Origin: Odoribacter sp.
GTDB lineage: Bacteria > Bacteroidota > Bacteroidia > Bacteroidales > Muribaculaceae
DNA length: 55,664 nucleotides
Direction of reading: 5' to 3'
NCBI GenBank assembly: GCA_023663145.1
Contig: JAMPHZ010000019.1
Location: 1 to 55,664 of the forward strand
This document shows positions 25,426 to 40,589 of this stretch, piece after piece. The position numbers and the translations under genes were made by a program. The notes under the pieces are model-generated. The model was not told the DNA's origin. It saw only the letters and a program-made list of their open reading frames with translations, and searched no databases. Positions within the stretch are counted from its first letter, which is position 1. The number at the start of each line of letters is the position of its first letter.

Positions 25426-27006
25426 TTAGAATTCGAGTGAATTTACGCGTACAACCCAGGGGCGTACAGCTACGTCAAGATCGAAGTATACGTTCCAGTC
25501 TTCGATCACAGTGCCGGGTTCGAATGTGCCGAATTTTGTGATGTTCTTCACTGAAAGTTTGTATACGTTGTTACGCACGGTTGCAAATTCCATGTCACCG
25601 GTGGTGGCGAGGTCATTGTTGTCGTTGTGACGGTTGAATGCGAAATAGTAGCAGAGGTAGTCACCGGCAGCATTGGGGCGGTAGATTGTGAATCCGTTGG
25701 CTTTGAGCACGTCATCGGCCGCGGGGGTGAAGGTGCCGTCTGCTTCCTTGGTGAAGCATGCGTGGAATGCGGTGGCAAGGGTTGATACGGGAGTTTCTTC
25801 AATCACGGCAGCCATGGCTTCTGCGTTGGGGTAAAGTGTCTGGCCGTAGAGATACATGATGTCACCTTCTTTGAGCTTGTCACTGTTGATTGTGATCTTG
25901 GCCTCGAAGATGTAGCCGGTGGTGTTGTCGGTTGCAGGTTCAGCGCCGGGTCCGAAAGTGTTTTCGGTAGTATAGCGCCAGATGTAGTAGCCTTCTTTGT
26001 TGAAGTCTTCGCCCTGGTTGTTTGGCCAGCCTTCGTCATTGTCTTCTGTGCCGCCGATGATGTCTGCGAGGTTAGCCCACTGCAGGTCGTTGTCGCCGGA
26101 ATTGAGGGGATCGATTACTGAGGGCAGGTTCTGGGTATAGCTACGGTTGTCGGGCGAGATTACAAAGCCGTCTTCCATGCCGTCGAAGGTGGGGCAGAGG
26201 GTGCTGGGGCTTGATGCGTCGGCTTTGGTGCGGGGCAGGTAGTAGAACTTATCGGCCATGTTGGTCATAGCTACACGGGTAAGTGTTACGGTGCCCTGTA
26301 CGTCGTTGGTCTCGGTGTTGGTGATGTCATATGAGAGGTCACCGTTCTTCGAGGCGTCGCGGAAGTCGAAGCGGCTCATGGTGCGGATTACTTCAATGGT
26401 ACCGAGTTTATAGGGATTGGCGGGGGAGTCGTAGCTGCGCAGCGTGGTCTCGGTGGGGAGGGTTTTCTCAAGTACCTCAACGCTGCTCATGAGGAATCCG
26501 TTTTTCTGCCATGTTATGGAGGGATCGGAGCCTTCGAATATAGCGTCGGTAAATAGGTCACCGACGTTGAGGTTGGTGATCTTGTTGCGGAGTTCTTCTG
26601 TGGGGTTGCAGAATGCGAAGAGGTTTACAACATGTTCAGCCTGGTTGAGCAGAGCCTCGCGGTTGTCGAAGGTGATTGTGTAGGTTGCCTCGGCGTTGGT
26701 GGCGGGAGTCTGCGAGATGGGAGCATCATTAAGGGCGTAGGTGAGGAACTTGTAGTCGGTTGAGCCTTCTTCTTTGGTTGTCATTACCACAAGGATAGAT
26801 CCGACTTTGTTTTCGTAGTCCTGTCCGATTTCTTCGCCATCTTTTTCGCTTGAACGGGCGGAGGAGCGGAAACGGAATTTAACCGATGAGTAGAACGCAT
26901 CTTGGTTCTCGTTAGAGCCGCCACCGTTGTTGGTCGGTTCATCGCTCGAGCAGGCAGTCATGCCCAGAACGAGGGCCGCTGCGAGGAGTTTGTTGAATAA
27001 TTTCAT
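25426..27006 (-). CDS. Mfa1-family major fimbrial subunit
   Basis: A 526-residue lipoprotein precursor (MKLFNKLLAAALVLGMTAC, Cys19) with a low-complexity Asn/Gly linker after the lipid site. Typical Mfa1 segments: KVGSILVVMTT, EHVVNLFAFCNPTEEL, LGTIEVIRTMSRFDFRD and VYKLSVKNITKFGTFEPGTVIEDWNV near the C-terminus. In this family the lipidated precursor is exported and cleaved after an Arg by a trypsin-like protease, and subunits polymerise by strand exchange. Several Arg residues (FRFRSSARSSEK, residues ~45-55) could serve, but the site cannot be fixed here. It is the third gene of the operon, 36 bp after the DUF3868 gene. Confidence 0.9.
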   Translation of the reverse strand: MKLFNKLLAAALVLGMTACSSDEPTNNGGGSNENQDAFYSSVKFRFRSSARSSEKDGEEIGQDYENKVGSILVVMTTKEEGSTDYKFLTYALNDAPISQTPATNAEATYTITFDNREALLNQAEHVVNLFAFCNPTEELRNKITNLNVGDLFTDAIFEGSDPSITWQKNGFLMSSVEVLEKTLPTETTLRSYDSPANPYKLGTIEVIRTMSRFDFRDASKNGDLSYDITNTETNDVQGTVTLTRVAMTNMADKFYYLPRTKADASSPSTLCPTFDGMEDGFVISPDNRSYTQNLPSVIDPLNSGDNDLQWANLADIIGGTEDNDEGWPNNQGEDFNKEGYYIWRYTTENTFGPGAEPATDNTTGYIFEAKITINSDKLKEGDIMYLYGQTLYPNAEAMAAVIEETPVSTLATAFHACFTKEADGTFTPAADDVLKANGFTIYRPNAAGDYLCYYFAFNRHNDNNDLATTGDMEFATVRNNVYKLSVKNITKFGTFEPGTVIEDWNVYFDLDVAVRPWVVRVNSLEF

Positions 27007-27042
27007 AATAATTAAATAGATTGGTTATTTTTGTTTTGTAAA

Positions 27043-28527
27043 TTATCGTGTGAATGTCTTGGGCGTGTTGTCATTGAGGTATGTTATATTGTTTTGTGAC
27101 ACTTCCTCTACCTCAGAGAGGTTGTCAAGAGCTGTTGCTGCCTGAGGCACTCCTTTGGTTGCTGCCGTCTGTAACAGAGGGCGAGCTGCGGCAAAATTGC
27201 CTTGGCGCGCAAGTATGATGCCGTTCAGATAGTCTACGGCCGGGGAGCCGGGCACACGGCTCAGGAATCTGGCTGCTGCTTCAGGATCTTCTTTATTGAT
27301 TGCCACGGCTGCGGCATTGATGTTACTGGTGGAGTCGTCGGGGAAGCAGCGTACGGCCACATCGAACACTTCATTATATTCATCGCTGCCGGGGGTATAT
27401 GAAGATGCGAGCAGATGGAATTCCCGCAGGCTCAGATTGCCGGGGCGTTCACGCATCACGCGGCGGATCTCATCGATGTCGGTGTATTCACGTATTGTGT
27501 AACGTACTGTGTAATCGGAGTGACGTAGCGCCGGATAGATGTATTCGAGTATGTATTTGTAATCGGAGGGGAATTTGCGCTTTATAGCGGCGTCTTTGGC
27601 ATCGGGTGCGAGGTCGCTGTCGATGAGTTCGATGATTCCGGCACGGTTGGGTAATATTGATATGAGCATGGAGTCGCGGAATCCGGCCCAGTCTTCAGGT
27701 TCGTTGTCGGTGTGGAAGATTGATGCTGGGAAATCGTATTGTGACATAACGTAGTCCTTTAGAGCCACTGTACGGCCTTTGGAGAGGCGTATGTTATTGT
27801 TGTAAGGGCCTTCGGGCGATGCATAACCCTTGATGGTAATGTCGGTGATGGTGGCGTCAGGATTTTCGCGCACTACATTTATTGTGGCGAGAATCTTTGC
27901 AAGCTCGGTAGGGTTTTTGCGGTAGACAGGGTCTATTTCTGTGCGGTTTACGCGGAAATCAATGAACGCCGAGCCGTGAAGCTCTATCGTTTTTGAGTCG
28001 GCCACGGGCGGTGCTTCGGCAATGAAGTCAGGCGCGATGAATTCGTGAGGGCGCATGTCTATCATGGCGGCCGGAGTGGAAGTATTACGCTCGGGAGCTC
28101 CGCAGCATCCGTATTCATGCGCGTCCATGGCTATGGTTGATACCTGCATCCAAGGCTGGAACTCAGTGGCTGCGCTGTAGGTTATGGTTTTGTCGCGGCC
28201 GGCTCGCAGAAGTATCGCACCATGAGGAAGCTTCCCGGGTTCCCGCACGTATCTCAAGTATCGGTCGTGGCCGGCGATCACTATGGGAGGCAAGGTGGCG
28301 CTGGATGTGGAGTCGGCGTTGTAGATCACGGGCTGTAGTGTGAGCTCGCGGTTGCGCCCGAAGTTATACTGAGCGGGATTGATGTCCATCTTGAGTGAAA
28401 CCAACGCATTGTCCTGCACACTCACAGTGAGATCAGAAATGGCCAGCGACGACATTTCGTGTGCGGCGGCTGCGGCTGTGATTCCCATGGCTGCTGCAGC
28501 TGCTAAAATGTATTTATTGATTTGCAT
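27043..28527 (-). CDS. DUF3868/OmpA-like periplasmic protein of the fimbrial operon
   Basis: A 494-residue secreted protein: signal peptide (residues ~1-22), then a DUF3868 beta-domain (SDLTVSVQDNALVSLKMDIN ... ELTLQPVIYN). The middle region has an OmpA-like peptidoglycan-binding fold (DITIKGYASPEGPYNNNIRLSKGRTVALKDYV, residues ~225-260). A C-terminal TPR-like helical region (FAAARPLLQTAATKGVPQAATAL) follows. Genes of this type lead type V fimbrial operons together with a DUF3575 barrel, and the pair is thought to act as envelope support for assembly. It is 15 bp after the DUF3575 gene. Confidence 0.85.
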   Translation of the reverse strand: MQINKYILAAAAAMGITAAAAAHEMSSLAISDLTVSVQDNALVSLKMDINPAQYNFGRNRELTLQPVIYNADSTSSATLPPIVIAGHDRYLRYVREPGKLPHGAILLRAGRDKTITYSAATEFQPWMQVSTIAMDAHEYGCCGAPERNTSTPAAMIDMRPHEFIAPDFIAEAPPVADSKTIELHGSAFIDFRVNRTEIDPVYRKNPTELAKILATINVVRENPDATITDITIKGYASPEGPYNNNIRLSKGRTVALKDYVMSQYDFPASIFHTDNEPEDWAGFRDSMLISILPNRAGIIELIDSDLAPDAKDAAIKRKFPSDYKYILEYIYPALRHSDYTVRYTIREYTDIDEIRRVMRERPGNLSLREFHLLASSYTPGSDEYNEVFDVAVRCFPDDSTSNINAAAVAINKEDPEAAARFLSRVPGSPAVDYLNGIILARQGNFAAARPLLQTAATKGVPQAATALDNLSEVEEVSQNNITYLNDNTPKTFTR

Positions 28528-28542
28528 AGCGGTTTCCTGATT

Positions 28543-29133
28543 TTAGAATACGTAAATAAGGTTCACTGCGGCCTTGGTGGGGCCTACGTAGTTGTGGGCG
28601 CGGTTGCTCTCAAGCTTAGTGCCACAGGTGGCGCAAGGATAGACGTCGTAGCGTGTATATATCCATCCCACGGCAATCTCGGCTTCTATGCTCCAATGCT
28701 TTGAAAGCATCCATGTGTAGCCGTAGCCGATTCCGAGCCCTGCGCTCCAGCCTTGGTAGCGTTTGTCGCTCAGGCCCGAGAAATCGCTGCCTAACATTTT
28801 GAATGAGTTGTCGAGATTGCCAAAGTTATACTCGCCGGCGATGGCGTGTGCGGCCAGGAAGTGCCCTCCGAAGCGTTCGCACAGCCAATATCGGGCCTCA
28901 GGTTGTATGAACCAATGTTTCCATTGATGACCGCTTACGTTCCAGTTGTTGAAATTGCCTGAAAGATCAATCGACCATTTGGGCGCTACTCCCACTTCAA
29001 TTCCCAGGTTCGGGCTCAAGGCTGCGTCGTATAGCAGGTTGCTCTTGATGCTTACCGTCTGAGCTCCGGCGGTGAGTGCCAGTATTGTGACGGCGGCAAG
29101 CGTCACGGGCTTGGTGTGTTTATGATGTGACAT
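28543..29133 (-). CDS. DUF3575 outer-membrane beta-barrel protein, first gene of the fimbrial operon
   Basis: A 196-residue protein with a signal peptide ending near TAGAQ and the DUF3575 opening SIKSNLLYDAALSPNLGIEVGVAPKWSIDLSGNFNNW. Alternating aromatic beta-strands (WKHWFIQPEARYWLCERFGGHF, GLGIGYGYTWMLSKHWSIEAEIAVGW) run to a terminal aromatic (YVF), as expected for an outer-membrane barrel. It is the promoter-proximal gene of the operon and pairs with the DUF3868/OmpA protein downstream. Confidence 0.88.
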   Translation of the reverse strand: MSHHKHTKPVTLAAVTILALTAGAQTVSIKSNLLYDAALSPNLGIEVGVAPKWSIDLSGNFNNWNVSGHQWKHWFIQPEARYWLCERFGGHFLAAHAIAGEYNFGNLDNSFKMLGSDFSGLSDKRYQGWSAGLGIGYGYTWMLSKHWSIEAEIAVGWIYTRYDVYPCATCGTKLESNRAHNYVGPTKAAVNLIYVF

Positions 29134-29608: not shown

Positions 29609-32425
29609 TTATTCCCAGGTGAGGTTCCAGATGGCCACGCGGTCGCTGTTTTTGGTATTGGCCGAGAGGCAGTCGTTGACAATCTTGATCTGGAAGTCGC
29701 CGCTGATGTTTACGTCGAGCGAGTAATCATAGGCAGTCTTCTGTTCAAAACTTGTGAGTGATACGGTTCTCTCGGATACTACGCTGCCGTTCTGGATAAA
29801 CTGGATTGTGAACGAGCACTGCTTGTCGGCGTAAGGGAAGCCGTATTTGAACGTGAGTTTTGTACATCCGCCGGTGAGTGTGGGAGAGGTGAGTTCACCT
29901 GCTGAGCCGGCCTTACCGTTGAGACATACTGCAATGGTTGACTCTCCGCCGATAAAGGCGAAACGGGGAGTCTGTTCGGTCCCTCCTGCTGCGAGGCCGC
30001 TCAAGATGTTGGCGTTCACCGCAGTCCAGCCGGTGGCATTGGTGTAGGTGCCGTAGGTTGATTTAGGAGTACCGTCATTGAACGAGTCGAAGTCTCCCTT
30101 GTACTGGGTCGAGGGTGTGGGAGGAGTGGGGGGAGTAACTGTGCCTGCTCCACCTACTGTGAGGTTGCCTTCGTAGGTGAACACCAGATCGCGTATTTCC
30201 CATGTGTCGGCGCCTGCTGTGCTTGAGGCGTATTTGAAACCAACCTGCACTTTCTTGCCGATGTAGGCGGTGAGGTCTATCGCTCCTGAATTGGTGAAAG
30301 TCCACGCGCCGGCGGCGGGCCATGTGGGGATAGTCAGCATGTGCCATATTGATGATCCTTCCTCGCGCACTGCGAATCCGCAAAGTGTGGTGCAGGTGGT
30401 CTGGAATTTGGCCGCGTGGTCAAATGCCGCGCTCACGGCGGTGGCCGATGTGAGGTCAATAATGGGTGAGATCGCCCATGCTTCCGAGTCATAGTTGGTG
30501 CCGTTGGCGAAGGCTGATGCATTGAGATAGTAGGCAGAGCTGTATTCTTTCCACTGCCAGATGTCATAGCTCAGAGCTGAAGGCACGGTCACGTTGTCGA
30601 ATGTCCAGTTGGTTATGCCGTCGGCGCTGGTCGGGTCAAGCAGTTTGACGGTGTTGCCGCTCACGGGCGGAGTCACGGGCCCCTGTCCGTTGATCTTGTA
30701 ATTACTTGTATTCTTGATACCGGGGAGGGTATTATACTTCATGACGTCGCCGAATACCTGAACCTGCGATCCCAACATGCCCGGATTGTCAACGAGGTTG
30801 AGGGCTGTGCGGGTGTCGGTCTGTGCCACGAGCTGTATGCATACACAGTTGGCGGTAGATTGAGTGGAGGGATCGTCGCTGATGAGGATGTTGGCGCGCT
30901 GTGTGCCTCCGGCCTCAAAGTGAGCGGCATAGTCTTGATAGTAACCTACGATATAACCGGTGGTCCACACGCCTGACTGGACTGCCTCGGTGGTGGATGA
31001 CGGATTCATCGCAATAACCTGCGCGCATGTGTATGGTGACTCTTCGCTACCGTCGCCCAGCTCGGGGGTTACGGGTCCGAGGTCAATACCTTCGATCTTG
31101 AATGTAGAAGCGGAACCGTCGTTGTCGGTGAGTCCGTAAGTGCCCATGAATTCGGCGAATGTGCCACGGATATCGATCTGCTTGCCGTAGTTTTCGGGAT
31201 TTTCGCGCAGTGCGCCGTAGGTCTGCAGGTCAGAGCCTTGGGGAAGAGCTACCACGATGCATTGGGTGATATCTTCGGTCTCGGCGGTCTGGCCGATGAC
31301 GAGGGTGTTGCGCAGGGTAGGATTGGCACCCCATTCAATATCGGCGTTGGAGGCTACGGTCTCGACTTCGGGAGCCACGGTGCCTACAATGTAGCCGCGT
31401 ATCCATCCGCTGCGTTCTACTCCTGAGCCGTTCACTTCAAATGCGATGGCTTCAAGCACTGAGTAGGGGTTGCCTTCCGAGCCTTTGGGTATGGTTGGGT
31501 CACCTACATTCATGATTGAATTGGCATCAATGAGAGTGAGCTGCCAGTCGCCGTTGCCGGCGAGGTTGACGTAGTAACCCAGGAGGGCTACGATATCGCA
31601 CTTGCCTTCGGGAAGCTCCATGTTCCAGAAATTGGCGTAGCCACTGGTACGGATATCCAAAGTGTTGCCGTCGTTGTCGCGGATCTGCTGTGTGACACCG
31701 CTTGAATGGTAGGTGGAGAGGGTCGGTATAGTGGCATTGGGGATGAATTCCACGTTATTTATGCGCACGAGTTGGCTTTGCCATTTCTGCAGGTCGGCGG
31801 GTGTGACACCGAGGGCATTTTTACCTTCAAGGACAATAGTGTCGATCTTGGCTGCGTCGGGCATGCCGTTGAGCTCCATATTACGCACGAACATCTCGGG
31901 AGCCATGAATGAAGTCTCGTATCCGGGGATCGAAGAGTTGTAGCTGGGGAAGCCTACTTGCTCGAGTCCGCGGTATTTACCCATATATAATCCGGTGAGA
32001 TCAACCACGATTTCCTGACCTACACGGTAGTTGAGGTATAGGTTATAAGAGTTGATGGAGAAGTTGAGGGCACATGTCTCATCCTGGAGTACGATGTACT
32101 TGAAGCAGTTGCCTGCATAGTCGGATGATACGACGCGGCCTTTCACTATCAGGTGCTCGCCCTGGAACTTCATTTCCTCGGTGGGATTCTCACCTTTCGC
32201 AAGAGCTTCATAATAGTCTTTCGTATACACCTGCCCGCAGTAGTTGTTGTCATCACTCCACATCAGGGCCTTTGCCTCGGCGAGCGTTGTGTTGGCCACC
32301 ATTGTGGCTTCGGGTATAGAAGCCTCCTTGTCGGGCTCGTCGAAATGGTCCTGGCAGGATGGGAGCGCCACGGCGGCGGCTACGATGGCCGTCACGCCAA
32401 AGATATATTTATTGAGAATATTCAT
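29609..32425 (-). CDS. Multidomain surface lipoprotein: DUF5689, OB-fold-like modules, choice-of-anchor J
   Basis: A 938-residue lipoprotein (signal ends LPSC, Cys24). Residues ~45-305 are a DUF5689 region built like paired OB-folds (HLIVKGRVVSSDYAGNCFKYIVLQDET ... YRVGQEIVVDLTGLYMGKYRG). Two further OB-like modules (~315-450 and ~455-580) each start with GS/GDGSEE-x-PY and contain RGYIVG or TTGYIVG. Residues ~595-755 match the choice-of-anchor J fold (WAISPIIDL, FDHAAKF, TWEIRDLVFTYEG), paralogous to the end of the neighbouring 561-aa protein. A last beta-sandwich (~775-938) is carbohydrate-binding-module-like. There is no catalytic motif. It is probably a surface binding component working with the TonB receptor two genes upstream. 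Confidence 0.8.
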   Translation of the reverse strand: MNILNKYIFGVTAIVAAAVALPSCQDHFDEPDKEASIPEATMVANTTLAEAKALMWSDDNNYCGQVYTKDYYEALAKGENPTEEMKFQGEHLIVKGRVVSSDYAGNCFKYIVLQDETCALNFSINSYNLYLNYRVGQEIVVDLTGLYMGKYRGLEQVGFPSYNSSIPGYETSFMAPEMFVRNMELNGMPDAAKIDTIVLEGKNALGVTPADLQKWQSQLVRINNVEFIPNATIPTLSTYHSSGVTQQIRDNDGNTLDIRTSGYANFWNMELPEGKCDIVALLGYYVNLAGNGDWQLTLIDANSIMNVGDPTIPKGSEGNPYSVLEAIAFEVNGSGVERSGWIRGYIVGTVAPEVETVASNADIEWGANPTLRNTLVIGQTAETEDITQCIVVALPQGSDLQTYGALRENPENYGKQIDIRGTFAEFMGTYGLTDNDGSASTFKIEGIDLGPVTPELGDGSEESPYTCAQVIAMNPSSTTEAVQSGVWTTGYIVGYYQDYAAHFEAGGTQRANILISDDPSTQSTANCVCIQLVAQTDTRTALNLVDNPGMLGSQVQVFGDVMKYNTLPGIKNTSNYKINGQGPVTPPVSGNTVKLLDPTSADGITNWTFDNVTVPSALSYDIWQWKEYSSAYYLNASAFANGTNYDSEAWAISPIIDLTSATAVSAAFDHAAKFQTTCTTLCGFAVREEGSSIWHMLTIPTWPAAGAWTFTNSGAIDLTAYIGKKVQVGFKYASSTAGADTWEIRDLVFTYEGNLTVGGAGTVTPPTPPTPSTQYKGDFDSFNDGTPKSTYGTYTNATGWTAVNANILSGLAAGGTEQTPRFAFIGGESTIAVCLNGKAGSAGELTSPTLTGGCTKLTFKYGFPYADKQCSFTIQFIQNGSVVSERTVSLTSFEQKTAYDYSLDVNISGDFQIKIVNDCLSANTKNSDRVAIWNLTWE

Positions 32426-32444
32426 TGTCAGAACAGTTTAATGG

Positions 32445-34130
32445 TTATTCGGCAACCTTTGCGTTGACGAGGGTGAGATTTCTGATTTCCCAGGTGTCGG
32501 TGGCCTTGCATCCGTATTTGAAGCCGATTTCCACGGTCTTGCCGGCATAGTCGGCGAGCGACACGGCCCCTGAGTTTACAAAAGTCCAGCTGCCGGCTTC
32601 GGGCCATGTGGGCATTGCGAGGGCTGTCCAGGCATCACTGCCTGCCTCGCGTATCACGATGCCGCATTCGGTGCGCAGGCCGCTGTCCTGGAACTTGGCC
32701 GCATGGTCAAAGGAGAATGATGCATCAGCACTTACTGTGATCTTGGGTGAGATTGCATATGCGTCTTCGGTGGGTACGGGATCAACGCCGAACAACTGAC
32801 CGTTCAGGTAATATTTGCCGTTGTATTCTTTCCATATCCACACCACAGGGTCGGTGATGGTCCATCCGTCAAGGGCATTGGCATCGGTTTCAACGAGCAG
32901 TGTGCCGGCTGCCGGTTCGGGAGTTGTGCCGCCCTGGCCGTCATAGCTTATGATGGAGCTGCCGGTGCCGACTTGAGGAACTCCGTTATAAGATGTCAAT
33001 GTGCCGAGGATGATGACATCCTTGCCTTCCTCAAGGTCTTTTTCAGATGTGAATTTGGCTCCGTTGAGGCCATAGCCGCGGTAAACAAGCATTGAGGTTG
33101 TGCCGGCACCGTCGTTGATGGTATAGCTTGCGTTGCCGAATTGGGTGCTGATCTCAGATATCTGGTCAATGGTACCCTTGATGTATACCGGAGTGTCGGC
33201 AGCGCCGCCGGCGTTCACGACAGCCAGTGCGGCAGCCACGTTGTATGGGCTTGCGAGTGTGCCGTCGCCTTCAGGGGTGACAGGTCCTACGGGTTGGTCA
33301 GGCTTGCCTTCACCGTCAAAGTCGATGCATGATTCTGCGTCGATGAGCAGCAGTCGCAGTGTGGAACGATAGCATGAGAGGATACCGACAACGTCGCCGG
33401 TTCCGTATGGAAGCAGGTCGTAGGCGAAGTCAGCATACGAGCTGTTGTAGACTATCATCTTGTTGCCGTCGGCATCAATTATATTGCGTGATGTGGTGTT
33501 GCCGTTTGAGAAAGGTTGTCCGGCCTCTACGAACTTGACGCCGTTGATGCGGATAAGACGGCTCTGCCATTCGATCTTGCCTTCCTTGGTCTGGTTGGCC
33601 TCGATCATCTCGGGGATTGTAACCACTGTGGTATCAAGATTTGCTGAGTGGAAGTCGAGCATTGTGTGAGGCTCGAACGCTGCATTTGTGATACGGTTGA
33701 CACCGCTGGTGTCGAGTTTACCCAATTGTACCAGTCCGTTGTAACGGCCGATTGCAAGTCCGCTCACGTTTACGGCCATGCCTATGCCCATGGGGTATAG
33801 TTTCTCGAGGTTGGTGGTGTCGACGCCGATTGTGATTGCGCCGCTCTCATCCTGAAGCACGATGGTCTTGTAGATGTTGCCGGCCTCGGTCGATGACACG
33901 ATTGTGCCTGCGATCCATACATCTTCGCCGTTGAGTTTGCCTATTTCGGTGCCATATGTGTCCTGATCCTGCCAATACTGTTCTTTCAGTTCGGCTATCG
34001 AGAGGGTAGGCTTGAAATCGGCGGGATAAGAGGGAACATCCATCGGGGGTTGCTCCCAATTGTCGGAGCAGGATTGCATTGCGGCTGCTCCAAGCACCAG
34101 AGTGGTGATATATAATGAAATCTTTTTCAT
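32445..34130 (-). CDS. DUF5689/OB-fold/choice-of-anchor J lipoprotein
   Basis: A 561-residue lipoprotein (signal ends AMQSC, Cys21). DUF5689 spans ~40-273 (GEDVWIAGTIVSSTEAGNIYKTIVLQDESGAITIGVD). An OB-fold module spans ~290-396 with TPVYIKGTIDQISEISTQFGNASYTI and ILGTLTSYNG. This module is closely similar (about half identical by eye) to one in the 752-aa secreted protein at 38331-40589. A choice-of-anchor J domain spans ~408-556. The gene lies between the TonB receptor (33 bp) and the 938-aa lipoprotein (19 bp). By analogy with receptor-linked surface lipoproteins it probably captures the ligand; OB-folds and context make a nucleic acid or other polymer possible. Confidence 0.82.
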   Translation of the reverse strand: MKKISLYITTLVLGAAAMQSCSDNWEQPPMDVPSYPADFKPTLSIAELKEQYWQDQDTYGTEIGKLNGEDVWIAGTIVSSTEAGNIYKTIVLQDESGAITIGVDTTNLEKLYPMGIGMAVNVSGLAIGRYNGLVQLGKLDTSGVNRITNAAFEPHTMLDFHSANLDTTVVTIPEMIEANQTKEGKIEWQSRLIRINGVKFVEAGQPFSNGNTTSRNIIDADGNKMIVYNSSYADFAYDLLPYGTGDVVGILSCYRSTLRLLLIDAESCIDFDGEGKPDQPVGPVTPEGDGTLASPYNVAAALAVVNAGGAADTPVYIKGTIDQISEISTQFGNASYTINDGAGTTSMLVYRGYGLNGAKFTSEKDLEEGKDVIILGTLTSYNGVPQVGTGSSIISYDGQGGTTPEPAAGTLLVETDANALDGWTITDPVVWIWKEYNGKYYLNGQLFGVDPVPTEDAYAISPKITVSADASFSFDHAAKFQDSGLRTECGIVIREAGSDAWTALAMPTWPEAGSWTFVNSGAVSLADYAGKTVEIGFKYGCKATDTWEIRNLTLVNAKVAE

Positions 34131-34163
34131 GTAAAAAGGAATGTCTATATATTAATGTGGAGA

Positions 34164-36935
34164 TTAGAAGCGCACACCGATGTTCAGGAATGCACGCACG
34201 CCTTGCGCGTAGGTGTAGCGGTTGGGATAGGCGTTGCGGTCGTAGTTCTTGGTGTCGAGGCGGCCTTGCTGGTAAGCGTAGGTTACGACATCGCGGTTGT
34301 TGAGGATGTTGTTGACGCTCAGGTTGAGGTTCAGGGTGACCTTGCGGTTTATGTAGATTACCTTGCCGATTGAAACGTTGAGTGTGAAATTGTTCTTGAG
34401 CTTGTCCTGAGTGGAGAGCTCGGCGATCTTGGCGGCGAGGTCATCTTTGTCGGGGTATGATTTCCACAGATCTGCTATCACTTCGTGGTAAGCCGGCGAG
34501 AGGTTAACGTAGGCATCGCCCTGGAATGTACCGTTTATATTGAAGAACCACATACCGGGCGCAGCCCAGTCAATACCGATGTTGGCGGCGTATTGGGGTG
34601 TTGAGCCTACATAGTAGTTGCGCAGGTATACAGTCTGGGTGGTGTCGGGGTGCAGGCCGTTCTCAAAGGTACGGGTACCCTGGGGATTGTTCTTATATTG
34701 GAAGCGTGCGTAGGTACCGGCGAAAGTCGCGGTCACCGAAGGGGTGATCTTATATGCCATACCTAATTCTACACCTTTGTAAACTTTCTTCACACCTGAA
34801 AGGATGTAGTAGGTGTATGAATTGTAACGGTCGTCGTAGAAGCCGGTGCGTTCGATGCCGTTATCGCTCATGGTGGCGAAGGCGGCAAGAGAACCGCGGA
34901 AGCGGCGGTAGTTCCATGTGTAAGCGATGTCGCCTGACAGGATGCGTTCCGATGATACGCCTTCAACTACATCATTTTTCACACGGGGCATGAGGTAGAT
35001 GGCGTCGGCGAGCGGAGCGCGGGTGCCGTACTCGACGTGGCCGAGGAAGTAGTTGTGGCCGTCAAGCTTATAGGTTGCGCCTGCCTTGAATCCTGCATTG
35101 TCGAATGATTGCCACTTGCCTTTGCCGTAAGAGGTAAGGGGTGCGCGGCCGTTGCGCATGTGTCCTTCGCGCTGATACTGGGTGTATGATACGTTGAAAC
35201 CGTAGTTGATGTCCCAGTGTGGCAAGGTGATGGTATTTTGCAGCCATGCATTGGCGGTGAGGGCGTAGAGGTTATAATGATAGCCGAATTTATCACCTTT
35301 GTAAACACGATGGCTGTAGGGATCGGGATAATTGAAGTTGTTTACGAGGTTGTCGGGGGCGAGGGTGATGTCGCGGTCGCTGAAAGGATCGACGTCAATC
35401 CAGAACTCACCGCCGAGCAGGTCGCGTATGGTTTTGTAGTTGGAAGAGTTGGCATATTGCACGGCAACACCACCCTGAAGGCTGATCTTGTCGTTGATGC
35501 GGGTATTGATATACGAGTTGAACTTGAGGTTGAGTGTGGTGTTGATACGGTTCTCAAGGATGTAGCTTGCGCCTTGCTGCTGACCTTCGGGAAGGTTTGC
35601 ATTGGCAGCGTTGTTGAGTTGGTTTACCGAATAGAGATTGTCCCAGTTGATTTGGGAGAATGACTGGTCGTTTTGCCACAGCCAGGTATAATATTCGCTT
35701 TGTTCTGTGGGTTCGTCGTTGTCGTCAAGGTAATATGACGGGAGATAACGGTAGTAGGTGGGGTTTGGATCGTTGGCTTTGTAGTACTGGAGCGCCGAAC
35801 GGTTGTAGTAGTTATATACAACGGCAAGGCCGGTATTTACCGTAGTGGAGCCTTTTTTGTATAGCCAGTTCAGCATGGCCGTGGGATCGTAGGTCTCGGT
35901 TACGCGAGCCGCACGTTTCTTGCCCTGATACCATCCCCAGTTGGGGTTGTAGAGATTGTTGTCAAGCAGGTCATATACTTCCTGATATGTGCCGGTAGAT
36001 GTGGCACGCTGTGTGGGGCCGCCCCATGCTGTAAGAATCAGTTGGTTGTTGGCGTTGAAGTATTTCTCAATTGACAGGAACAGACCGCCGCTGTTGTAGA
36101 ATGTGCCGTCGATGACCCCTTCTTTGGCGTATCGGCCAATAGCGCTTACGGTGAAAGCCCAACCTTTTTTGTTCAGGCCTGTAGCATATGTCACCATGGC
36201 GCGCATCAGGTAGTTTGAATTGGTAAAGGCGATAGATCCGTTGAAGCCGGGAGCGTAAAGATCGGTCGTTGTGTTGTAATTGACTGATCCGCCTATATCT
36301 CCGAAACCGTAGTTGGCGGCTGCCATGCCTATTGAGGTGGTTTTATTTCGGAACGCGCGCGAGGTCATGCCCAACAGTGATGAGAATGTGAAGCGCCCGC
36401 GGATCAGGTCGTTCATCTGCATGCCGTTGATGTATACTGCCTGGTATTGGCTGTCATAACCACGGTAGCGGAAATACATGGGACCGAAATTGTAGGAAGC
36501 AGTGTTGTAGTAGATGTCATCGTTGGCACCGGTCAGGGCCGCGATGCCCTGAGTGTTCTCGTCTTCATCCTCGAGTAGATCCTCATCGAATATGAGATCA
36601 TTGGCGTCGCCATAGAAATCAGTGGCTGCGGTTTCGGGAGTTACACGTATGTGACCGATGTCATTTGCGCCGGGATTTAGGTCAACATCAATGCCTTGCG
36701 ATGCGAACCCGTCACAAGTAATGACAATGTAGCACTTGCCGGGGGCGGCTTCAAGGCGGAAATCACCGTTGAATCCTGTCATGGACGATGTTCCGGTAGC
36801 CTGAATGGTTACATAGGCTCCGCTGACCGGACTGTCCGACTGACTGTTCACCACTACACCGGTAAGGGTAGCAGTCTGCGCCATAACCGGCAATACTGCC
36901 GCTAATAGCGATAAGAGAAACAATTTTAGTCTCAT
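34164..36935 (-). CDS. TonB-dependent outer-membrane receptor with N-terminal carboxypeptidase-regulatory-like domain
   Basis: A 923-residue transporter: signal peptide to MAQ (19), CarboxypepD_reg-like domain (LTGVVVNSQSDSPVSGAYVTIQ, to ~100), then an acidic linker (FDEDLLEDEDENTQGI, ~115-130). The plug follows, with YNFGPMYFRYRGYDSQYQAVYINGMQMND. A ~22-strand barrel with many aromatic alternations ends in RAFLNIGVRF. The acidic linker and RGYDS plug are features of a Bacteroidota receptor subfamily distinct from SusC. It leads an operon with two DUF5689 lipoproteins and is divergent from a secreted EEP-family enzyme. The substrate is unknown. Confidence 0.9.
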   Translation of the reverse strand: MRLKLFLLSLLAAVLPVMAQTATLTGVVVNSQSDSPVSGAYVTIQATGTSSMTGFNGDFRLEAAPGKCYIVITCDGFASQGIDVDLNPGANDIGHIRVTPETAATDFYGDANDLIFDEDLLEDEDENTQGIAALTGANDDIYYNTASYNFGPMYFRYRGYDSQYQAVYINGMQMNDLIRGRFTFSSLLGMTSRAFRNKTTSIGMAAANYGFGDIGGSVNYNTTTDLYAPGFNGSIAFTNSNYLMRAMVTYATGLNKKGWAFTVSAIGRYAKEGVIDGTFYNSGGLFLSIEKYFNANNQLILTAWGGPTQRATSTGTYQEVYDLLDNNLYNPNWGWYQGKKRAARVTETYDPTAMLNWLYKKGSTTVNTGLAVVYNYYNRSALQYYKANDPNPTYYRYLPSYYLDDNDEPTEQSEYYTWLWQNDQSFSQINWDNLYSVNQLNNAANANLPEGQQQGASYILENRINTTLNLKFNSYINTRINDKISLQGGVAVQYANSSNYKTIRDLLGGEFWIDVDPFSDRDITLAPDNLVNNFNYPDPYSHRVYKGDKFGYHYNLYALTANAWLQNTITLPHWDINYGFNVSYTQYQREGHMRNGRAPLTSYGKGKWQSFDNAGFKAGATYKLDGHNYFLGHVEYGTRAPLADAIYLMPRVKNDVVEGVSSERILSGDIAYTWNYRRFRGSLAAFATMSDNGIERTGFYDDRYNSYTYYILSGVKKVYKGVELGMAYKITPSVTATFAGTYARFQYKNNPQGTRTFENGLHPDTTQTVYLRNYYVGSTPQYAANIGIDWAAPGMWFFNINGTFQGDAYVNLSPAYHEVIADLWKSYPDKDDLAAKIAELSTQDKLKNNFTLNVSIGKVIYINRKVTLNLNLSVNNILNNRDVVTYAYQQGRLDTKNYDRNAYPNRYTYAQGVRAFLNIGVRF

Positions 36936-37024
36936 GCGGTATTATTAATTGATTTTTAATTATTTATGAGCGTTTGTGTATGTAAGGCAGTTTAAGTGTA
37001 GACGTTAGGTGCTGTTTAAGCCCC

Positions 37025-37055
37025 CAAAAATACGACTAAAATTTGAGGTGGCAAA
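37025..37055 (-). promoter_or_regulatory. TonB-receptor operon promoter
   Basis: TTTG (37052-37055) and TATTTTTG (37025-37032) on the minus strand with 19 bp between them, a full Bacteroidota promoter match. Predicted start near 37018, leaving an ~80-nt leader before the receptor ATG. Confidence 0.65.
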
Positions 37056-37090
37056 AAATTATTTAACAAAATAAGTATTTTTTAACAAAA

Positions 37091-37110
37091 CAATCTCACC
37101 TGTGAGGTTG
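37091..37110. promoter_or_regulatory. Inverted repeat, candidate operator between divergent promoters
   Basis: CAATCTCAC-CT-GTGAGGTTG: two 9-bp arms with one mismatch and a 2-bp centre, 35 bp upstream of the receptor -33 element and about 100 bp upstream of the nuclease-like gene's -7 box. The symmetry fits a dimeric DNA-binding regulator. No regulator gene is adjacent. Confidence 0.45.
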
Positions 37111-37212
37111 CAAATGGCATTGTATAACGGCTGGCTGAGACACCCGAAGCCGTAAAAATCAAATGAATAATAATTTTTAATCCAATTATTAGAAAATACC
37201 GAAAATTTGTAG

Positions 37213-37220
37213 TAACTTTG
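37213..37220 (+). promoter_or_regulatory. Putative promoter -7 box of the EEP/OB-fold operon
   Basis: TAACTTTG, exact TAnnTTTG, 40 bp upstream of the ATG at 37260. Transcription would start near 37227, which rules out a TTG start at 37218. The -33 region is only T-rich. Confidence 0.5.
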
Positions 37221-37259
37221 AGCCGTGAAATGAATAATAACTACCATCCACGATACACC

Positions 37260-38297
37260 ATGTTCAAGAAACTAATAATCGCGGCTGCGCTTGTCCTTGC
37301 TTCTATCCCTGCGGTAGTTGCCCAAGGTGGAATGCAGGCTGCCGGAATCGCGTTCTATAATCTTGAGAATCTTTTCGACACCATTCCCAACAATCCTCTC
37401 GGGCGAGATCTCGAATACACACCCGGTGGTCAGAACCGGTGGGATTCGCGCAAGTATAACAATAAGTTGCATAATCTTGCGACCGCAATATCGTCATTCA
37501 CTACCAAGACCACTCCTTATGGACCCGCGATCATTGGTGTGAGCGAGGTCGAGAACCGAGGAGTGCTTGAGGATCTCGTAGCACAGCCTGAACTGAAATC
37601 CTGGAATCTTCAGATATGCCATCATGATTCACCCGACCGCCGCGGCATTGATGTCGGCCTGCTCTATAATCCGCGTTATTTCAAGGTTGAAAATGTGACA
37701 AATCATCGTCTGACCGCTGTGCCGTTCGCTACCCGTGACCAGATGTGTGTGGTCGGATCCTTATTAGGCCAGCAGGTAGCCGTTATTGTAAACCACTGGC
37801 CTTCGCGTCTCGGTGGTCAGGAGCAATCATCCCCGAACCGTGAGGCCGCGGCTGCATTGTGCCTTGAGATCGCCGATTCATTGTGGAATATAAATCCCAA
37901 TATCGGAGTAATAATCATGGGCGACCTTAATGACGATCCCATGGATAAGTCTTGTGCCAATGTGCTTGGCGCCAAGAAAAAAGCAGCAGGAGTAGGAGCC
38001 CATCAGTTCTATAATCCGTTTTGGAAAATGCTTGATGACGGTATCGGCACCCTTGCATACAAGAGTTCGTGGAATCTGTTTGACCAGATCATACTGTCAG
38101 GCAACCTCGTAAACGATACCGGTGACCAGAACTGGCATTTCTACCGGGCCGTTGTGCATAATAAGGATTTCCTGAAAGATAAAGAGGGGACACGTCAGGG
38201 TTATCCGTTGCGAACATTCGCCTCAGGCTCGTATCTAAACGGCTATAGCGATCACTTCCCAACCGAGATCCTGCTTGTGCGTAAAGTCGCCCGTTAA
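37260..38297 (+). CDS. Secreted endonuclease/exonuclease/phosphatase (EEP) family enzyme
   Basis: A 345-residue protein from the ATG at 37260 (MFKKLIIAAALVLASIPAVVAQ, a signal peptide). All core EEP motifs are present: FYNLENLFD (metal/phosphate Asn), SEVEN (metal Glu), RRGIDVGLLY, NHWPSR (His), MGDLNDDP (Asp/Asn), FDQII and the terminal SDHFP. The family cuts phosphodiester or phosphoester bonds (nucleases, sphingomyelinases, phosphatases). The NHWPSR and RRGIDVGLLY forms are like those of extracellular nucleases such as ExeM. It is divergent from a TonB receptor operon and 33 bp upstream of an OB-fold secreted protein. An exported DNase or RNase is the leading guess; a phosphatase or phospholipase is the alternative. 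Confidence 0.88.
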   Translation: MFKKLIIAAALVLASIPAVVAQGGMQAAGIAFYNLENLFDTIPNNPLGRDLEYTPGGQNRWDSRKYNNKLHNLATAISSFTTKTTPYGPAIIGVSEVENRGVLEDLVAQPELKSWNLQICHHDSPDRRGIDVGLLYNPRYFKVENVTNHRLTAVPFATRDQMCVVGSLLGQQVAVIVNHWPSRLGGQEQSSPNREAAAALCLEIADSLWNINPNIGVIIMGDLNDDPMDKSCANVLGAKKKAAGVGAHQFYNPFWKMLDDGIGTLAYKSSWNLFDQIILSGNLVNDTGDQNWHFYRAVVHNKDFLKDKEGTRQGYPLRTFASGSYLNGYSDHFPTEILLVRKVAR

Positions 38298-38330
38298 TTG
38301 AATCATTTATAACCAACTTAATATATCGAT

Positions 38331-40589
38331 ATGAAGAAACTTTTACTCAGTTTAGTCTGTGCGGCCTCAATGGTCTTCGGTGCTTCGGCAGCCGATGTTA
38401 CCGTTACTCCCGCTCAGTTAAATCTTTCAGGGTCAGTGACTGTTGATGGATTTACCATCGACATTCAGAAGAACAATGGTTCAACAGCTCCCGCTCTCAG
38501 TGGCGCCAATCTTCGCCTATACGCCAAGAATACAATGGCTATCAGTGGCGAAAAGGTTGCGAAGGTAGTGTTTACTTTCGCGAGCGATAACGGTTACCGC
38601 TATACAACATTCACACCCTCTACCGGCGCCTACACAACTGAGCAGGCCAGCGGTGATACAGAACTTACATGGACCGGTGATGCCACAGCAATCACTTTTA
38701 CTGTAGGTGACAAAGCAACTTTCGGTTCAGACGGTGCCAGCAAAGCCGGTCAGATCCGTCTCGCTTCAGTTACAATCTCTGGTGAAGGCGGTGAAGGTGG
38801 CGATACCCCTGTCACCCCGCCCGTTGACATTGCCAACACTCCTGAAACAGCATATACCGCAACCAAAGCCCTTGAGCTTATCGCCGCCGGCGAAGGTCTC
38901 TCCTCAGATGTTTATGTTCAGGGTGAAATCAAGTCGATTAAAGAAGTTAGCACAAGCTACGGCAATGCCACATACACCATTACCGACGGCACTTCAGATC
39001 TCACCATCTTCCGTGGCTATTATCTTGAAGGTGCCAAGTTTACTGCCGAAGACCAGATTAAGGTAGGACAGAAGGTTATCGTTTATGGCAAACTTACCTC
39101 ATATAACGGTGAAGGTCAGATGAACCAAGGTAATAAAATCTACAGCATCGATGGTGAAGGTGGTGACACCCCCACTCCCGAGAAGGTGGAAGTAAGTACC
39201 CTCGCAGCTCTCAAGGCTCTTGCTGTAGACACTCCTGTTAAGTTTACAGCCAATGCAACCGCTGTTTACCAACATCAGAGCAGTCTTTATCTCACCGATG
39301 GTACTGACTGGCTCCTCGTTTACGGCAAACTCAACACTACCTATACTAACGGTACCGTGCTGACCGGTTTCGAAGGTACTGTAGGTGAATACAACGGTAT
39401 CAAGCAGCTCACACCCGCTGCCGATACATTTACCGCAGGCACTGCAGGCACCGCCGTTGAACCTACCGAAATGGCCATCGAAGAAGTTGCATCTGACCTC
39501 GCTTGCGAATATGTCAAGTTTGTAGGTGTTGCAATTGCTGCAACCGAAAATACCCGCACATTCACAATGAGCGACGAGTCTGGTTCAATCACACTTTATC
39601 AGAATTGGACTGATATCGACATCCCCACCGGCGAAGGTCTCACAGTTACCGGTTTCATAGGTATGCACAGCGGCGTTGCCCAGATCCTCTGTGTTTCAGT
39701 GACCACCGCAAGCGGTCTTGAAGTTGTTACCGCTCCCGTCTTCTCAGTAACCGGTGCAGTAGCTGAAGGTACTCTCGTCACTCTTACATGCGACACCGAA
39801 GGCGCTACAATCTACTATACAGTAGACGGTACCGAACCCACCACAGATTCTGCAGTCTACACTGACCCCATCGCTATCAATGAGGAGATGACCATCAAGG
39901 CTATAGCTGCCAAAGCAGGTATGGAAACCTCAAGCGTTGCAACCGCATCTTACACCATTAAGGCACCCGTTGTAGTAGAAGGCAATCAGGCAACATTCGA
40001 CTTCACTGATATTGCCAGTCTCACCCCCGCTTATAACGCTGATCAGGCAACAGATGACGGCACTACCGGCAACAAACTCATCGATGTGAAAGATGTGGAA
40101 TTCCAGGCCAACGGTGTGACTGTAGTCAACGCAGGTGAAGGCACAGCCGCCCGTCTCTACTATCAGCCCACCAAAGACGCATGGACATACCGCATCTACA
40201 AGAAGTCTACTCTCACCATCACTTGCCAGAGTGGATATGCTCTTGAAAGCATTGCATTCGAAACCCAAACCACATCTTATGCTACCGCACTTGGTAACTC
40301 TACCTTCTCAACCGGTACATTTGCTGATGGAGTTCTCTCGTTCCCTGCACAGTCAGCCAACGATGTCAACACAGTTTCAAGTGTTACCATTACACCCTCA
40401 GCAACTATCGGTTTCAATAAAATGACTGTTACTTTCAAACCGATAAATGGTGTCAATGACATTGAAATCGACGCTAACGTTCCTGTAGAATTCTATAACC
40501 TCCAGGGTGTGCGTGTTGAAGGCGAACTTACCCCCGGCCTCTATATCCGTCGTCAAGGTAATACAGCATCTAAGGTGCTTGTTAAGTAA
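38331..40589 (+). CDS. Large secreted OB-fold protein with CHB_HEX domain and conserved C-terminal tail
   Basis: A 752-residue protein with signal peptide (1-20, ending GASA). Modules: beta-sandwich (~22-152); an OB-fold (~170-277; SDVYVQGEIKSIKEVSTSYGNATYTI) paralogous to one in the 561-aa lipoprotein; two more OB-like modules (~285-365, ~385-460). A chitobiase C-terminal-like domain (~468-545; GATIYYTVDGTEPTTDSAVY) follows, then a second beta-sandwich (~550-705) and a C-terminal tail (~709-752; FYNLQGVRVEGELTPGLYIR). No enzymatic motif. Codon use is biased to GGT, GAA and CTC/ACC compared with neighbouring genes, as in highly expressed genes. It is probably a secreted or surface-attached binding protein working with the EEP enzyme. 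Confidence 0.8.
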   Translation: MKKLLLSLVCAASMVFGASAADVTVTPAQLNLSGSVTVDGFTIDIQKNNGSTAPALSGANLRLYAKNTMAISGEKVAKVVFTFASDNGYRYTTFTPSTGAYTTEQASGDTELTWTGDATAITFTVGDKATFGSDGASKAGQIRLASVTISGEGGEGGDTPVTPPVDIANTPETAYTATKALELIAAGEGLSSDVYVQGEIKSIKEVSTSYGNATYTITDGTSDLTIFRGYYLEGAKFTAEDQIKVGQKVIVYGKLTSYNGEGQMNQGNKIYSIDGEGGDTPTPEKVEVSTLAALKALAVDTPVKFTANATAVYQHQSSLYLTDGTDWLLVYGKLNTTYTNGTVLTGFEGTVGEYNGIKQLTPAADTFTAGTAGTAVEPTEMAIEEVASDLACEYVKFVGVAIAATENTRTFTMSDESGSITLYQNWTDIDIPTGEGLTVTGFIGMHSGVAQILCVSVTTASGLEVVTAPVFSVTGAVAEGTLVTLTCDTEGATIYYTVDGTEPTTDSAVYTDPIAINEEMTIKAIAAKAGMETSSVATASYTIKAPVVVEGNQATFDFTDIASLTPAYNADQATDDGTTGNKLIDVKDVEFQANGVTVVNAGEGTAARLYYQPTKDAWTYRIYKKSTLTITCQSGYALESIAFETQTTSYATALGNSTFSTGTFADGVLSFPAQSANDVNTVSSVTITPSATIGFNKMTVTFKPINGVNDIEIDANVPVEFYNLQGVRVEGELTPGLYIRRQGNTASKVLVK

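Follow-up and report, generated by a model that had tools for sequence, protein, structure and literature searches.

The closest described counterpart of the locus considered here is the DNA importer of Riemerella anatipestifer, reported from a transposon screen of 3000 mutants for natural transformation (PMC8459023). Markerless deletion of RA0C_RS04915 or RA0C_RS04920 left no detectable transformants, with the wild type at 5.4e-5. RA0C_RS04915 carries PF13620 and is predicted to be an outer-membrane barrel, and RA0C_RS04920 carries DUF5689 and a choice-of-anchor J domain. The authors of that study speculate that RS04920 binds DNA and that RS04915 passes it across the outer membrane; their discussion has double-stranded DNA degraded to single strands "by an unidentified protein". 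The importer was described as occurring mainly in Flavobacteriaceae. RS04910 is mentioned once in the main text, as the gene upstream of RS04915. Here, a related locus is described from Odoribacter sp. (order Bacteroidales; assembly GCA_023663145.1, contig JAMPHZ010000019.1, 55,664 nucleotides, this whole stretch being referred to as the window). It contains a receptor, two DUF5689 lipoproteins, an enzyme of the EEP family and a further exported protein. The locus is probably a Bacteroidota outer-membrane DNA-uptake module, with a divergently encoded EEP enzyme that would be the nuclease trimming the DNA.

A first-pass annotation of this DNA had described five genes arranged back to back around a 324-bp gap. 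All five open reading frames were recovered where it had placed them, and the distance from the receptor start to the EEP start is indeed 324 bp. The receptor, of the outer-membrane TonB-dependent type (923 amino acids, aa; 34164-36935, minus strand), is followed on the same strand by a 561-aa lipoprotein (32445-34130), the predicted surface DNA-binding partner, and by a second lipoprotein of 938 aa (29609-32425). The EEP enzyme (345 aa; 37260-38297) lies on the plus strand and is predicted to be an exported DNase. The divergent control region between the two starts (36936-37259) was read directly; it contains TAACTTTG at 37213-37220, which we take to be a fit to the Bacteroidales -7 box, TAnnTTTG.

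The Riemerella region was read in strain CCUG25054, where it was located through a published comEC primer; the published mutants are of ATCC11845. Its gene order is ComEC, a 145-aa gene, a 542-aa gene resembling an acyl-CoA carboxylase subunit, the EEP gene on the minus strand, 247 bp, and then the receptor and the DUF5689 lipoprotein on the plus strand. ComEC lies about 2.2 kb beyond the end of the EEP gene. From gene order and domains we infer the tags RS04910 for the EEP gene, RS04915 for the receptor and RS04920 for the lipoprotein, because the numbers proceed in steps of five from ComEC (RS04895); this agrees with the naming of RS04910 as the gene upstream of RS04915 (PMC8459023). In BLASTP comparisons, the window receptor aligned with that of Riemerella over its full length (27% identity over 967 columns, E 9e-102) and the 561-aa lipoprotein with the Riemerella lipoprotein (E 3e-22). 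The two EEP proteins are 35% identical (E 2e-73). The window receptor is therefore homologous to that of Riemerella, and a same-strand DUF5689 lipoprotein stands directly behind it, as in the Riemerella module. That the locus imports DNA is considered likely. After its transformation locus, R. anatipestifer encodes a 1400-aa protein that looks by eye like Cas9 (L073:14711-18913), so genes for DNA import and DNA defence may be close neighbours in that species.

Pfam matches in the receptor were limited to PF13620/PF13715 at the N-terminus. The Pfam plug and receptor models did not match it, and PF00593 was found in 4 of 120 listed relatives. A sequence search of solved structures with the receptor profile matched only the N-terminal carboxypeptidase-like domain. 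The predicted structural model has a mean predicted local distance difference test score (pLDDT) of 56, with most of the plug region below 50; its poor quality is perhaps due to the alignment, which held 18 close relatives. A Foldseek search with this weak model gave 231 matches in the PDB with E at or below 0.001. All of the 50 that were listed are TonB-dependent transporters, and Fiu, FhuA and BtuB are among the structures matched. By structure search, as far as so weak a model allows, the receptor has the TonB-dependent transporter fold.

Both lipoproteins carry DUF5689 and choice-of-anchor-J domains. The 561-aa protein also has an OB-fold match and the 938-aa protein two stretches of DUF6359 (Pfam, NCBIfam). 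These are the only two DUF5689 matches in the window genome. Against NF052645, the M949_1556 lipoprotein subfamily, they score 118 and 120 bits, below the curated cut-off of 475, and the Riemerella lipoprotein is a full member at 591 bits. A sequence search of solved structures with the lipoprotein profile gave no match, and single-sequence searches of solved structures returned chance-level rows only. The predicted model of the 561-aa lipoprotein is good (pLDDT 86.7), and its Foldseek rows include the p204 HIN-dsDNA and Teb1 OB folds at low template modelling (TM) scores. The VIA-align list is filled by one C-terminal domain, residues 404-557, and is uninformative on the OB parts.

In the structure search, this C-terminal domain looks similar to gingipain adhesin domains and to carbohydrate-binding modules. 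Such a resemblance would suit a module whose ligand is not a nucleic acid but a lipid, a glycan or a phosphodiester metabolite, and whose loss blocks transformation indirectly. Lipid-acting enzymes and phosphatases also occur among EEP folds. In Riemerella, transformation is inhibited when either tonBA or tonBB is mutated, iron acquisition falls only with tonBB, and a nutrient effect behind the transformation defects was suggested by the authors (PMC8383284). The inhibition of transformation also counts in favour of TonB-powered DNA uptake. An indirect effect is very unlikely to account for the locus, however: OB-type matches and a nuclease-like enzyme occur in the same gene set, and the markerless deletions abolish transformation completely (PMC8459023).

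Conservation was assessed in 99 genomes of the window's order, each representing its own genus; the naming of related proteins points to Bacteroidales. With a profile threshold of at least 232 bits (the next distinct gene scored 121 bits), the receptor was found in 45 of the 99, at 46 places; 17 of the 54 genomes counted as receptor-less have weaker TonB-type matches, below 232 bits. At 44 of the 46 receptor places a DUF5689 match occurs no more than 6 kb away, and 62 of 66 DUF5689 matches, counted at 74 bits or more, adjoin a receptor. A PF19580 match occurs within 4 kb at 30 of the 46 places; in four of the remaining 16, a contig end truncates the receptor. Forty of the 45 receptor places outside the window were fetched, from 39 genomes, and three more in addition. 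Queries with the Riemerella receptor recovered the receptor gene from all 40 loci, and those with the Riemerella EEP recovered an EEP from 26.

A DUF5689 gene lies downstream of the receptor in 37 of these 40 loci. Clustering placed an EEP gene in 26, of which 25 are divergent and one (L064) lies 10 bp upstream of the receptor on the same strand; a 27th (L070) was found at the tree stage. The arrangement of L064 recurs in L115 (L115:1699-5881, genome G008), where the EEP gene immediately precedes the receptor and shares its strand. The EEPs of L064, L115 and L070 fall in one small tree clade. The joint recurrence of receptor, DUF5689 and EEP across genomes is more than chance, and so the failure of conservation that the first-pass annotation had named as grounds for rejection did not occur. 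Mere chance neighbourhood is ruled out by the order-wide linkage together with the co-occurrence of one EEP clade, described below. Flanking genes that recur in the 40 loci, named by eye, are glycosyltransferase-like (8/40), dihydroorotase-like (7/40) or a 145-aa gene (5/40). No match to ComEC, RecA or the 145-aa gene of Riemerella was found beside the receptor in these loci. The receptor gene of genome G030 (L036:10140-11753) is split by an internal TAA and was omitted from alignment A2.

Many genomes carry a second PF19580 gene. A tree of 70 EEP proteins, whose bootstrap had not settled, contains a set of 48 rows (support 95/90) that holds the 30 receptor-adjacent EEPs and the Riemerella EEP. 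This set is referred to as clade A and includes the window enzyme; the other paralogue forms a set of 21 rows (support 90/88). Profiles built from the two sets scored the rows they were trained on at least 92 bits apart, and all 40 additional EEP proteins fetched from receptor-less genomes scored as the second kind. By tree and profiles, clade A is present in 43 of 45 receptor genomes (all except G032 and G009) compared with 3 of 45 assessed receptor-less genomes (G025, G067 and G071), giving p 3e-19 with genomes treated as independent. The assessed receptor-less genomes comprise 37 with at least one EEP fetched, which need not be every copy, and eight with no PF19580 match; the other nine of the 54 (G011, G013, G022, G038, G058, G069, G079, G092 and G095) were left out. 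G067 may not be a true exception, as a receptor-like gene with 299.5 bits to the receptor profile adjoins its EEP. G025, the only other sampled genome of the window's family, keeps a clade-A EEP (L097) and has no receptor match above 66 bits, which suggests that the importer was lost.

The window enzyme is 345 aa long from its ATG; the open reading frame tool begins at an upstream TTG and gives 359 aa. It matches PF19580 (Exo_endo_phos_3) at 4.3e-111 and 371 bits, compared with a gathering score of 27, and is the sole PF19580 match in its genome. The EEP motifs are kept in the 27 aligned sequences. Judged by eye, the 26 listed EEP proteins all have hydrophobic N-termini and lack any lipobox-like motif, a combination that fits a soluble periplasmic or released enzyme. 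A search of solved structures with the EEP profile found no PDB relative. In NCBIfam, the window EEP has no match, NF033681 (ExeM/NucH) included, and two related EEP proteins match ExeM/NucH and exonuclease III weakly.

The Riemerella-type transformation pathway also includes ComEC, DprA, a periplasmic HhH protein, ComF and a DUF1343 protein. ComEC and DprA are both encoded in the window genome. Across the sample, a ComEC match was found in 94 of the 99 genomes, 93 of them above cut-off. Domain content was examined in 32 ComEC proteins, comprising 30 from the order search (one of the 32 is a 307-aa fragment and one has 580 aa), that of the window genome and that of Riemerella. Pfam searches found the Competence domain in 32/32, DUF4131 in 30/32 and Lactamase_B in 0/32, and an HxHxDH-type motif was likewise present in 0/32. 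The control, E. coli YcaI, showed both Lactamase_B and the motif. These results are consistent with a published survey (PMC6299819) in which DUF4131 was gained in Bacteroidetes ComEC and Porphyromonadaceae were Competence-only; its Bacteroidetes profiles name DUF4131 and Competence and mention no gain of Lactamase_B. In S. pneumoniae, the nuclease domain of ComEC is likely inactive and EndA is used, and H. pylori is without both (PMC12455585, PMC5031224). Since the sampled ComEC proteins have no nuclease domain, the EEP enzyme is a candidate for the missing strand-degrading nuclease.

On the proposed mechanism, the OB-containing lipoproteins would bind extracellular DNA at the receptor mouth and TonB energy would drive it through the receptor. 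The EEP enzyme would cut the DNA and/or degrade one strand, in the periplasm or at the surface, ComEC would carry the remaining strand inward and DprA would receive it. What was observed is the gene order, the homology to Riemerella, the linkage, the clade-specific co-occurrence of the EEP and the absence of the domain from ComEC. The chance that the EEP enzyme is the strand-processing nuclease is put at a little short of even. Still more tentatively, the whole may be a pilus-free system in which a TonB-powered barrel and DUF5689 OB lipoproteins import DNA, with the clade-A EEP as a dedicated competence nuclease outside the inner membrane; it would then do the job of the beta-lactamase-like domain that ComEC lacks, or of EndA elsewhere.

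Several observations weigh against the DNA-uptake module. The receptor model is weak, and the DNA-binding look-alikes of the 561-aa lipoprotein model have low TM-scores and stand amid many carbohydrate-binding modules, so that they may be taken as a hint only. M949_1556, the namesake of the family to which the Riemerella lipoprotein belongs, has been linked to antigenicity and pathogenicity, which means that other roles exist for the family. DNase activity of the EEP enzyme is predicted from its family alone. The loss of the ComEC domain occurs in receptor-less genomes as well and does not track the EEP; being general, it leaves a slot for the EEP and is no proof that the EEP fills it. ComEC itself does not follow the receptor (42/45 vs 52/54 genomes), and neither does HhH (37/45 vs 36/54, p 0.11). 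Of the 42 receptor places that no contig end truncates, 12 have their EEP beyond 4 kb or in another part of the genome. The main text of PMC8459023 does not give RS04910 among the hits of its screen and reports no mutant of it; 3000 mutants need not saturate the Riemerella genome. Finally, a search of the window genome with one sequence, the Riemerella HhH protein, gave no match at E 1e-5.

The separated EEP genes and the silence on RS04910 would be expected if the EEP gene were an unrelated neighbour and the receptor-lipoprotein pair took up DNA by itself. This is unlikely, given that clade A follows the receptor even where the two are unlinked, in the 43/45 vs 3/45 distribution given above, and that the L064 EEP is co-directional with its receptor at the 10-bp spacing.

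The HhH result bears on a further alternative. The query of 445 aa is inferred to be RS02645 (RA0C_RS02645), and a diverged HhH protein in the window genome could be missed; the sole HHH_3 (PF12836) match there lies in a Tex-like protein. Either another or diverged protein does the HhH job, or the module serves nutrition in this organism. The latter is close to what the first-pass annotation had proposed, a system that captures, cuts and takes in DNA or RNA fragments as a supply of phosphate, nucleosides or carbon. On this view transformation in relatives would be a by-product. A predicted exported nuclease-type enzyme beside the importer would suit such scavenging. So would the Endonuclease_1 (PF04231) genes that three loci carry at a distance of up to about 6 kb from the receptor (L034:4244-5656, L036:15672-18159 and L069:4407-5756), with which an open-ended reading frame in L041 clusters; these genes count towards the DNA-uptake reading as well. 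A review raises the possibility that DNA serves P. gingivalis as a nutrient (PMC5907639). Nevertheless, no gene cluster present in at least four of the 40 loci resembled, on inspection by eye, a nucleotidase, a phosphatase or a nucleoside transporter. Moreover, both importer genes are essential for Riemerella transformation, which means that DNA of recombination length gets in (PMC8459023). For this reason scavenging is rather unlikely, and natural-transformation-type DNA uptake fits better; the nucleic-acid substrate of the earlier proposal probably stands, and its purpose of phosphate or carbon supply is the less likely part.

The 752-aa protein (38331-40589, plus strand), encoded 33 bp behind the EEP gene, is predicted to be exported and to carry an OB module. 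Pfam gave OB-fold matches and CHB_HEX_C_1/Fn3_assoc, and its OB module shares 47% identity, across 126 aa, with a module of the 561-aa lipoprotein. Its NF033681 score of 22.6 bits is below the cut-off of 300. Because it is the best match of none of the open reading frames in the 40 related loci, it looks like an accessory outside the conserved core. The surface system of receptor, OB-type lipoprotein and EEP that the first-pass annotation had assembled is thus retained, and the 752-aa protein drops out as a core part. In relatives of this protein, domains are combined in many ways. On the other side, the locus adjoins a fimbrial set at 25426-29133 of the window, which holds an Mfa1-family major subunit (NF038041, above cut-off), a protein with weak OmpA matches and a DUF3575 protein.

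The locus likely builds a pilus-free DNA importer, of which the EEP would be an overlooked partner; a link between the EEP and the importer was not found in print in a search limited to openly licensed PMC papers. The locus is relevant to two questions: how DNA gets across the outer membrane when a bacterium lacks type IV pili, and which nuclease produces single strands when ComEC lacks its nuclease domain. Because an EEP gene is conserved next to the proven importer, the second question becomes testable by the removal of one gene. Finding the importer in 45 of 99 genera sampled from the window's order widens its range and is relevant to the exchange of genes within the communities of these bacteria.

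Among known systems, SusC/SusD loci likewise pair a TonB-type barrel with a surface lipoprotein. The window locus differs from them in that no SusD or glycoside hydrolase model matched any of its five proteins (Pfam; SusD gave no match among the ten proteins scanned). A polysaccharide locus is thereby ruled out, as the first-pass annotation had held. ExeM/NucH share with the window the combination of an EEP domain and OB-type modules, whereas here the parts are split over separate genes; weak NCBIfam matches to them (22-24 bits against the cut-off of 300) were obtained for the 752-aa protein and two related EEPs. EndA has another fold than EEP. The window EEP would share with EndA of S. pneumoniae its role, the degradation of the strand that ComEC does not import, beside a ComEC without an active nuclease domain (PMC12455585, PMC5031224). 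EndA is membrane-bound (PMC12455585), whereas the window EEP is predicted to be soluble. The Riemerella pair RS04915/RS04920 matches the window in the order of receptor and DUF5689 lipoprotein, both of them homologous, and in the divergent EEP neighbour. The window differs from it in having two lipoproteins and an extra OB protein, a ComEC gene on another contig and no detected HhH partner in its genome. With the importer pair already known in Riemerella, the window locus is best read as a variant of the Riemerella transformation module.

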